The notes under the pieces were generated by a model. That model was not told the DNA's origin and did no database searches. It saw nothing but the letters and a program-made list of their open reading frames with translations. A DNA stretch of 64,000 nt from Pseudomonadota bacterium (lineage in GTDB: Bacteria > Pseudomonadota > Alphaproteobacteria > SHVZ01). A program made the translations under genes and the position numbers. Location of the stretch: the NCBI GenBank assembly GCA_016195085.1, contig JACQAG010000042.1:1-64000 (forward strand). Reading direction: 5' to 3'. Positions 38,349 through 41,408 of the stretch are shown piece by piece. Position 1 is the first letter of the stretch. Each line of letters starts with the position of its first letter.

Positions 38349-39173
38349 GTGGTTTCTCACACGACTCCCAAGGTCCATATGGGAACCCTCACCGGCGGCG
38401 AGGGACGCGAGCTCTATCAACGAAACCCCATCGTTCTGCTGCCGATGGGCAGCCAGGAGGATCAGGGGCCGCACGCGCCCATGGGCGACTATCTCTTGGC
38501 GGAGAAGATCGCCGAGCTGGCGGCTCTGCGCGCCTGCGAACGCGGGGTGCGCACGGTGGTCGCCCCGGTGCTGCCGTTCGGCGGCGCCGACTGGTTCGGA
38601 GCGATGCCCGGCGGCATCGCCATCTCCCAGGCGACCCTGACGATCTTCATCGACGAGATGATCGAGAACCTGCGCCGCCACGGGCTCACCCGGCTCATCG
38701 TCATCAACGGCCATGGCGGCAATGTCGGCCCGATCGCGGAAGTGGCGCGCGAAAACTATCGTCGCGACGGCCTCGTCATACCGAGCCTCTATCTCTGGCG
38801 GATCGGCTACGCGCTCTTGCCGAAGATCGTCGGCGCCGAGAAATCCGCCAAGGTCTCCGGCCACGGCGCCGATCCGGTGACCAGCACCGCCATGCATCTC
38901 TTCCCCGAGCTGATGCGCCCGGATCTCATTCCGGAAGGAAAGCCGCTGAAGCGCGACAAGACCCTCGACCTGCCGTTCACCGCACTGGGCTCCGCCAGCT
39001 TCGAAGGTGCGGAAGTCGGCATGCCGAACGAATATGACGAGGTCTACTGGACCGGCGTCGGCAAGGGCGATCCGCGCCTCTGCTCGGCCGACACGGGGGC
39101 CCAGATGACCGAGCAGCTCACGGAAATCTGTGCCCGCTTCATCAGCCACTTTGCCGGGAAGGTCGCAGCCTGA
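38349..39173 (+). CDS. creatininase family amidohydrolase
   Basis: The 274-residue enzyme belongs to the creatininase family of binuclear metal hydrolases that act on small cyclic or linear amides. Candidate metal ligands are E37, H42 and D47 in MGSQEDQGPHAPMGDYL and H122 in INGHGGN. The usual HAGE segment appears as GHGADPVTS, with aspartate where creatininase has glutamate. The GTG start is supported by AAAGGAG 7 nt upstream. It is the last gene of the ABC operon. The enzyme likely hydrolyses the imported compound, but creatinine itself is not implied. Confidence 0.88.
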   Translation: MVSHTTPKVHMGTLTGGEGRELYQRNPIVLLPMGSQEDQGPHAPMGDYLLAEKIAELAALRACERGVRTVVAPVLPFGGADWFGAMPGGIAISQATLTIFIDEMIENLRRHGLTRLIVINGHGGNVGPIAEVARENYRRDGLVIPSLYLWRIGYALLPKIVGAEKSAKVSGHGADPVTSTAMHLFPELMRPDLIPEGKPLKRDKTLDLPFTALGSASFEGAEVGMPNEYDEVYWTGVGKGDPRLCSADTGAQMTEQLTEICARFISHFAGKVAA

Positions 39174-39225
39174 GGCCGATGGGCGGCCACGGCTCGGCTC
39201 TCGCCCTGAGCCAACGTTACGCGTA

Positions 39226-39267
39226 TCAGGGTGCGATTAGGGTCTCCTCGACGAGGACGGGTGTCAT
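39226..39267 (-). pseudogene. fossil 5' end of a vapC-type toxin gene
   Basis: An ATG overlapping the stop of the AbrB-type antitoxin gene (as ATGA) opens a frame reading MTPVLVEETLIAP before a TGA. Coupled ATGA starts and an N-terminus of the type MTPVLVD are typical of VapC PIN-domain toxins. The match ends after six residues and no PIN-domain aspartates follow, so only the head of the toxin gene remains. Confidence 0.5.
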
Positions 39268-39497
39268 TTACCCCGCGTAAGCGCCATGATCTCATCGGTC
39301 GACATGCGCACGGTCGCGCTTCCCCAGAGGCGGCGTACCACATTCTCACCGCGGCTCTCGTGTTTTTGCGTCCTGGCGCGGACGATCCGCACCGACCGGC
39401 CATCAAGGATGAAGTCCACCTCGGTATGCGGCCGTAGTCCAGCACGCTCGCGGATATGAGCGGGGATCGTCACTTGGCCTTTCGAGGTGATTCGCAT
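39264..39497 (-). CDS. AbrB/SpoVT-domain antitoxin, VapB type
   Basis: The 77-residue protein starts MRITSKGQVTIPAHIRERAG, the classic swapped-hairpin AbrB DNA-binding domain. It ends in a polar tail (TVRMSTDEIMALTRG) of the kind that wraps a VapC toxin. AGGAG precedes the ATG at 39497 with good spacing; an upstream extension to 39560 has no family similarity. The adjacent vapC is reduced to 13 codons, so this antitoxin is orphaned unless a toxin in trans is neutralised. It may retain autoregulatory DNA binding. Confidence 0.85.
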   Translation of the reverse strand: MRITSKGQVTIPAHIRERAGLRPHTEVDFILDGRSVRIVRARTQKHESRGENVVRRLWGSATVRMSTDEIMALTRGK

Positions 39498-39627
39498 GCC
39501 GGTTCTCCTACTCTGACAGGCAAGAGCAATCAAACAGTCGCAAGACGTATGGGATGGCACCGAGCAAAATCCGGCCAGATCCGTCTAGAGCGATCTGGCG
39601 CATAAACTCGAAGAATGAATAGCGTGC

Positions 39628-40368
39628 CTACACGGCGCGCTTAGCGATCTCGGGCTCTGCTCGCGAGAATGCGACCGTGCGCGCGCCCATTTCCAGCAGC
39701 TTCAAATCTGACGACTGCCACGAAAGGCTATCGTCATAGATGATCAACTGATCAAGCAATGGATTATGCGCCAACTTCACATCGAGGTTCGCCACCAATC
39801 GAGCATTCACTGAAGACGCTTCACTGACCACAGGATCAATCAGCAATTTCCGGTCGCCGCTCAGATAGACTACGTGAACGAATTTGTGCAACTTCGCGCT
39901 GGCTCCGATGATCGGCGCGTCCCTCTTAAGGTTGTCGTGAAAATACCTGCCGAGAAGAGCGGCCAAGTCCTCTCGGAAGTTACGAGGCGTACGAAAACGA
40001 AGGTTCTTTAGCGCCCAATCCGCAACTTCCTTCGATGCATTCGCAACCAGCATGATCGCCGCGGGAATTGCATCGATTGGGATTGCCGGGGAAACGATCG
40101 ATCCGGCGCTTACGCCTAAGCCATAATACTTGATCCTTGTGCGGATTGTGCTGTCCGATACCTCGGCCTTTAGCCCAGAACCGATCATTTCTGCAATTGC
40201 GCCACCTTCATCCGACACAATGAACTCGTCTTCACCGCCGCGGACCACAACAGAGACCGCGCCGTTCGACGGATATAGGACGTGCGTAGACACGCGCACG
40301 CCATCGTCGAGCTGGATCGCCTCGACGGTGCGAGATAGCATTTCGATGATGGCCCGCGGTGTGATCAC
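39628..40368 (-). CDS. DUF1828-like protein of an unknown two-gene module
   Basis: The 246-residue protein has an N-terminal region resembling DUF1828: VSVVVRGGEDEFIVSDEGGA, a beta-rich block with the conserved serine-aspartate-glycine-type turn. A middle helical region (VADWALKNLRFRTPRNFRED) and a C-terminal half with HKFVHVVYLSGDRKLLIDPV and a final LIIYDDSLSW follow. No catalytic motif is evident. Its ATG overlaps the stop of the upstream gene (40365-40868) by 4 nt, so the two are coupled. The region is clearly less G+C-rich than its surroundings, which suggests transfer. DUF1828 genes occur in phage and defence contexts; a defence or toxin-antitoxin-like role is inference only. Confidence 0.65.
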   Translation of the reverse strand: MITPRAIIEMLSRTVEAIQLDDGVRVSTHVLYPSNGAVSVVVRGGEDEFIVSDEGGAIAEMIGSGLKAEVSDSTIRTRIKYYGLGVSAGSIVSPAIPIDAIPAAIMLVANASKEVADWALKNLRFRTPRNFREDLAALLGRYFHDNLKRDAPIIGASAKLHKFVHVVYLSGDRKLLIDPVVSEASSVNARLVANLDVKLAHNPLLDQLIIYDDSLSWQSSDLKLLEMGARTVAFSRAEPEIAKRAV

Positions 40369-40868
40369 AAGAGCCTCGTCCTTGGCGGAAGAACAATTAA
40401 GCCCTTCGCCGGTTGCTCAATATTTGTATCTCCGCAAAACCAACGGAGGGAGCTGTCAAATGAGCGCACCCCCTCTGGCATTATCCTAGCATTCTTTAGC
40501 TGCTCTGGCAATACCGACCTAGTACTAAATCGTCGATTGTCAGCCCAGGAATGGTAATGCGGCTGCATGAACGAATGTTCCAAAATATCTGATGGACGAT
40601 CGAAGGAATTAACGTGCAGTTCATCGGTTGTATGATCTATTTTCCATACGCATTTCGGCGCACAGATCATAATTCTAAACTTTCCGTGACCGACTAACGG
40701 ATACGCAGTTACTAGAAATTCTGCCCCAGTGCTCACGCCATCGATATGCAATGGCATCACCAATCGATGTTCATCGGGGTGGGGGCCTTCTCGCCATCCT
40801 GGAATGCCGACCAACTCCTTGCGCGCGGCGAGGAGATCATCAATCAGCTCGGCAATGGACTTGGTCAT
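40365..40868 (-). CDS. unknown protein, first gene of the two-gene module
   Basis: The 167-residue protein starts with a helical segment (SIAELIDDLLAARKELVGIPG). A beta-rich body follows, with GPHPDEHRLVMPLHIDG, RIMICAPKCVWKIDH and a His/Tyr-rich stretch HSFMQPHYHSWADNRRFSTR. I do not recognise the family with confidence; it has the look of the small proteins paired with DUF1828 partners. The downstream gene starts on its stop codon as ATGA. Lower G+C and unusual codon use match the partner. It could be an antitoxin, an inhibitor or a substrate-recognition subunit. The start at 40868 has no strong ribosome-binding site. Confidence 0.6.
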   Translation of the reverse strand: MTKSIAELIDDLLAARKELVGIPGWREGPHPDEHRLVMPLHIDGVSTGAEFLVTAYPLVGHGKFRIMICAPKCVWKIDHTTDELHVNSFDRPSDILEHSFMQPHYHSWADNRRFSTRSVLPEQLKNARIMPEGVRSFDSSLRWFCGDTNIEQPAKGLIVLPPRTRLL

Positions 40869-40964: not shown

Positions 40965-41408
40965 ATGCCCGCCAGCAAGAGCCCGATTACCGACGCCGAA
41001 CGGTCCCGCCGCTTCATCAAGAAAGCATGCGAGCTGGAGTGCGATGACGACGAGCGGGTGCTTGAGGCGAAGCTGAAGAAGATCGCCAAGGCGAAGCCGA
41101 TCCATGATCGGAACACGCGGAGGAGACATCACCATGCTCCAAGCCAGCCCGGAAAAGCCGCTCGCCGGCGGCTGCCAATGTGGCCGGGTTCGCTACGCGA
41201 TCACGGCGTCGCCGACCGAGCTCTGCGTCTGCCATTGCCTGGAATGCCGCAAGCAGTCATCCTCCGCCTTCGGCATCTCGCTCTTCGTTCCGCGCGCCGG
41301 GTTCCGGGTGACCCGCGGCACCTTCAAGACCTGGACCAGGGCGACCGACAGCGGCCGCACGCTCGCGTGCGCCTTCTGCCCGGATTGCGGCTCGCGGCTT
41401 TGGCATGA
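40965..41408 (+). CDS. small conserved hypothetical protein with runaway 3' end
   Basis: An ATG 6 nt after GGAGAA opens a frame whose first ~45 residues (TDAERSRRFIKKACELECDD and ERVLEAKLKKIAKAKP) look like a common alphaproteobacterial small protein of about 50-65 residues. Beyond that point the frame reads arginine-rich sequence antisense in character and overlaps the GFA gene for nearly 280 nt. The normal stop has probably been lost by a small frameshift or deletion near 41100, so only 40965 to about 41105 is likely to be genuine coding sequence. Confidence 0.5.
   Translation: MPASKSPITDAERSRRFIKKACELECDDDERVLEAKLKKIAKAKPIHDRNTRRRHHHAPSQPGKAARRRLPMWPGSLRDHGVADRALRLPLPGMPQAVILRLRHLALRSARRVPGDPRHLQDLDQGDRQRPHARVRLLPGLRLAALA

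Follow-up and report, generated by a model that had tools for sequence, protein, structure and literature searches.

What are the two overlapping genes that sit at the G+C minimum of this 64,000-nucleotide stretch of DNA (hereafter, the window), how did they arrive there, and what might they do? An earlier, sequence-only reading described two minus-strand genes of lower G+C than their surroundings, coupled by ATGA, and took them for a horizontally acquired unit, possibly a defence or toxin-antitoxin-like pair. Both open reading frames were present. Gene A (40365-40868, minus strand) encodes a protein of 167 aa, a remote relative of DUF6978 and PDC-M24A. Gene B (39628-40368, minus strand) encodes a PDC-M24B relative of 246 aa, with a DUF1828-like N-terminal half and a DUF1829-like C-terminal half. 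The coupling needed correction: gene A ends in TTG TGA and the start codon of gene B is a GTG inside that end, so that the actual overlap is GTGA. The small overlapping two-gene operon found in type II toxin-antitoxin systems is present in this form. The low G+C was borne out: the pair as a whole has 52.9% (49.6% in A and 55.2% in B), whereas 1241-bp stretches of the whole window have a mean of 66.2% (sd 2.8%), with 0.4% of them as low as the pair.

Searches of Pfam, NCBIfam and PHROGs gave nothing firm for the window A or B. Protein B matched the PADLOC model PDC-M24B (PDLC04540) with an E value of 1.2e-6 across residues 6-237 of 246, and nine of eleven B relatives matched the same model (best 5e-13). 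DUF1828 and DUF1829 were each matched weakly by two of the eleven B homologues; the window B showed no match to either at E<=1 and did not reach the Pfam gathering score. The DUF1828-like N-terminal block previously proposed for B was thus upheld through its relatives and PADLOC, while the window protein itself lies under the Pfam reporting level. The window A had no PADLOC match at E<=1, PDC-M24A included, and two of nine A homologues matched DUF6978 (4.3e-5) and one matched PDC-M24A (0.0013). The statement that A has no known domain consequently holds for direct family matches of the window protein, but not for the remote kinship with DUF6978/PDC-M24A that is seen through its relatives. In a profile comparison with the canonical pair (L039), the window B aligned with the canonical B at an hhalign probability of 92% (6.5e-7), and the window A with the canonical A at only 20%, with the alignment centred on the HxN...HxH region. 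A PDB sequence search with the A and B profiles returned nothing convincing, and B had no match in phage genomes. By these profile matches, the window pair is classed as a divergent member or variant of PDC-M24, a candidate phage-defence system in PADLOC. No paper was found in a literature search for PDC-M24.

Gene A was found directly upstream of gene B, on the same strand, in the window and in 18 further non-redundant loci (L002, L003, L012, L013, L014, L015, L017, L018, L029, L031, L043-L048, L066 and L068). When genomes were picked by A alone, B lay directly downstream in 8/8. The arrangement is kept across about 20 loci and is therefore more than chance; A and B are a genuine gene pair. 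The pair is rare: A was found in 8/398 and B in 13/385 of the sampled genomes, with the pair missing from about 97-98% of them. Pairs were also identified on a Sulfitobacter plasmid, a phage-like Caenibius plasmid and IMG/VR contigs. In one viral contig (L031 7863-8707), B was split by a frame break, through either sequencing error or decay. Four remote B-like hits (L060, L061, L062 and L063), beside which no A was detectable with profile A2, were left out of the pair count. Unpaired core chromosomal genes, which the sequence-only reading had held would contradict it, were not what was observed; in the counted loci, A was always next to B.

The surroundings of the pair bear on its arrival. In three family genomes, homology to the window extends across the peptide-ABC operon and the creatininase gene and stops at 39144-39156, which places a left synteny break (39144-39173) at that gene's 3' end. 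Only this left break could be demonstrated, because the sequences on the two sides of the pair are not adjacent in the family genomes; a clean empty site was looked for in relatives and was not found. There were no tRNA attachment sites within the window. The A/B pair was absent from the six other genomes of the window's order that were examined. Between the break and the pair, and outside the pair itself, lies an orphan VapB/AbrB-type antitoxin gene (39264-39503, minus strand; MazE/AbrB family match 4e-8 / 3e-9). Beside it is a putative vapC remnant (39225-39266, minus strand), with a start codon and 12 further codons followed by a stop (ATGACACCCGTCCTCGTC...). As this stop falls after 13 codons, the toxin gene of vapBC is gone, and we take the stub to be its probable remnant; the decayed vapBC locus described earlier is accordingly an intact antitoxin frame with a 13-codon toxin stub. 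On the other side of the pair, a small plus-strand ORF (40966-41120; MPASKSPITDAERSRRF...) has no stop before the following GFA-family gene, and its 3' end is possibly damaged.

Relatives of the pair provided a view of how it moves. Seven of them are passengers inside IS1595-family transposons (L003, L012, L043, L045, L046, L066/L067 and L068). In the first five of these, an IS1595-family transposase adjoins the pair, and the longest inverted repeat, of 23-38 nt with 87-95% complementarity, bounds exactly the transposase and the pair. The alignment scores of these repeats were 17-32, compared with shuffled maxima of 13-16; at all the other loci compared, including the window, the scores were at shuffled background. 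IS1595 insertion gives 8-bp target duplications. An exact duplication of this length was present at L046 (TAAAGATT), and one matching at 7/8 positions at L043. Further searching brought in L068 as well as a genome (G379) carrying two copies, L066 and L067, which are identical over 2436 bp and lie in opposite orientation at two different places, each with a separate, exact 8-bp duplication (TTTCTCGA and TAACTCTA, the latter reading TAGAGTTA on the other strand). These identical copies, each with its own duplication, are direct evidence that the transposase and the pair move as one unit. The tree of B requires that IS carriage changed three times or more, and the IS-borne L003 falls inside the window's own clade. 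At L047 (2529-4754), a gene for an HTH regulator and an A/B pair lie between IS1595-like ends that are borderline relative to background, with the transposase absent; this may be a non-autonomous relic.

Transposon remnants were also sought at the window locus, where neither a transposase nor an end-like motif was found and no inverted repeat scored higher than the shuffled sequences. Horizontal acquisition of the pair, as proposed by the sequence-only reading, is nonetheless well supported because of the low G+C, the synteny break, the absence from six genomes of the order, the patchy distribution and the transposon-borne relatives.

The genome that holds the window has a complete IS1595-family element of its own (L072 1416-3601, at about 115245-117430 of contig C6), with an exact 8-bp target duplication (AATTCATT). 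Its passenger encodes a protein of 307 aa whose HEPN-like motif, RNHVMH (RX4H), suggests that it may be another defence-like cargo. As this element holds a different, HEPN-like gene, the cargo habit of IS1595 may be general. We consider it nearly as probable as its opposite that IS1595-family elements repeatedly act as carriers for compact defence modules, and that PDC-M24-like pairs were acquired more than once and moved as one-piece "defence transposons" of about 2.4-2.9 kb. No report of IS1595 with anti-phage cargo was found in the literature searched, and the carriage of PDC-M24-like pairs by IS1595-family elements is newly documented here. The candidate defence class PDC-M24 and two domains of unknown function are now tied to a specific means of movement, transposition by IS1595 with duplication of the target site. 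Defence genes are difficult to detect when they lie outside defence islands, and the passengers of small insertion sequences could be searched for them systematically.

The genes next to the pair in relatives were surveyed for defence genes, as the earlier reading had suggested. At the canonical DUF6978 locus (L039), a PDC-M24A (3e-56) and PDC-M24B (3e-103) pair lies directly behind the type I specificity subunit gene hsdS, and the canonical pair lies in a type I restriction operon with an abortive-infection-like gene (L042 4617-12955). On our reading of the surrounding ORFs, the canonical pair would be preceded by an N6-methylase and followed by a large restriction subunit and the abortive-infection-like gene. 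In a viral, prophage-like contig (L029 4270-7413), a type ISP restriction-modification enzyme lies directly downstream of the A/B pair. The survey thus yielded restriction genes at two loci (L039 and L029) and not generally. A defence-island setting as a general rule was rejected, as the neighbours were mostly ordinary genes at most loci.

Structure prediction, also suggested earlier, was informative for part of one protein. The AlphaFold2 analysis of B (six sequences) gave mostly ~84-94 pLDDT for residues 129-246 (39631-39984, minus strand), which were modelled as a PD-(D/E)XK nuclease fold with an alpha-beta-beta-beta-alpha-beta core; the N-terminal half of B was poor. The modelled region matched PspGI (Z 9.8; 3.1 A over 116 residues) and BstEII, Can2 and Cdn1 (Z 9.7 each). 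With the B model, the best Foldseek E value was 8e-4, and the best viral structure match was a protein named DUF1828 (6e-11). In the alignment of B, D53 was present in 21/22 sequences, and G155 and D196 in 22/22. The core fold is present in the model and the catalytic D...(D/E)xK residues are absent: in the window protein D178 is kept, and V164 and V180 replace the catalytic D and K.

This fold raises an alternative that we consider unlikely, in which B would be the effector, an unorthodox PD-(D/E)XK nuclease attacking invading DNA, and A a regulator or specificity factor. The best matches of B are indeed restriction enzymes with a restriction-endonuclease fold and CRISPR ancillary nucleases, the second acidic position (D178 in the window) is D or E in 17/22 sequences, and position 190 carries a basic K or R in 12/22. 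However, the position of the catalytic lysine (V180 in the window) is V, I, M or F in 22/22 aligned sequences and never K, the first acidic position (V164 in the window) is D in just 11/22, or 12/22 counting E, and the canonical DUF1829 protein has an R at position 178. As the catalytic lysine is missing in 22/22, B probably does not cut DNA, and the modelled C-terminal half is probably a dead, nucleic-acid-binding domain.

The model of A (pLDDT 57, best structural match Z 3.8) was too poor for use. Across an alignment of 20 A sequences, W25, N87, H104 and H106 were invariant and N111 was present in 18/20. The invariant N...HxH signature is likely to be an active or metal site on the basis of this conservation, and A is a probable effector or enzyme.

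We tentatively favour, at somewhat under an even chance, the view that the pair is a horizontally acquired, mobile module of the PDC-M24 kind, most likely acting in phage defence in a toxin-antitoxin-like or abortive-infection manner. In this scheme, A, with its invariant N...HxH site, would be the effector; B would bind to A, to nucleic acid or to both; it would restrain A and let it go on sensing phage DNA or a change brought about by phage. The restraint of A by B and the role of phage as the trigger are our suppositions, as is the existence of one toxic gene, and the choice of A for that part is a guess. The assignment of B as a restraining, nucleic-acid-binding partner and of A as effector is made by analogy with DS-6/HipAD, whose protection against phage has been demonstrated and whose second protein contains DUF1829 (PMC13092281). 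In the model of its authors, that protein is a DNA-binding, toxin-antitoxin-like partner of a kinase toxin (PMC13092281). The defence or toxin-antitoxin idea of the sequence-only reading has gained from the PADLOC candidate status, the pair in a type I operon, the type ISP neighbour and the DUF1829 in DS-6, and it is still an inference. Support for a defence role of the pair is moderate and rests mainly on family membership, because the association with restriction genes was seen at two loci and is not general.

The same mobility could be read differently, with A and B as a selfish pair serving addiction or stability, which would retain transposons and accessory segments and have no anti-phage role. 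The presence of such pairs on IS1595 elements, on plasmids and on a phage-like plasmid, the lone chromosomal position in many genomes and the compact overlapping layout are all consistent with such a pair, but its location within a type I restriction operon in the canonical case and beside a type ISP enzyme in another, its PADLOC candidate status, and the occurrence of DUF1829 in a validated defence system argue against it, and we regard this explanation as improbable. A housekeeping or regulatory operon outside defence or addiction, for example one controlling transposition or a metabolite, is very improbable, since, although IS-borne copies might regulate the transposase, the pair is absent from nearly all of the sampled genomes, occurs with or without a transposase, has gained or lost its IS repeatedly on the tree, and is found in restriction operons. 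The favoured phage-defence reading offers a testable molecular picture, a partner with a dead nuclease fold together with a small protein carrying an invariant N...HxH site.

Compared with known systems, the pair resembles DS-6/HipAD as a two-gene system whose second protein has DUF1829; the partner in DS-6/HipAD is a HipA-like kinase, however, and its DUF1829 protein also has DUF3037, neither of which is in the window pair. Residues 129-246 of B share their modelled PD-(D/E)XK fold (Z 9.7-9.8) with the CRISPR ancillary nucleases Can2 and Cdn1 and the restriction enzymes PspGI and BstEII, from which B differs in having neither the catalytic lysine nor a CARF domain. Insertion sequence families able to carry passenger genes are known as tIS (PMC7986276). 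The seven relatives described above are such passengers of IS1595-family elements, whereas the window copy lacks a transposase or ends. The proteins of Pfam DUF1828 and DUF1829 (PF08861 and PF08862) share domain order and conserved motifs with the window B, which differs in scoring under the Pfam reporting level. With PDC-M24, the window pair has in common the gene order and size, a full-length PDC-M24B match and, by an alignment of low probability, the HxN...HxH region of A. It is very divergent from PDC-M24, with an A that has no direct match to the PDC-M24A model, and pairs of the window type are mostly lone or transposon-borne rather than placed within restriction operons.
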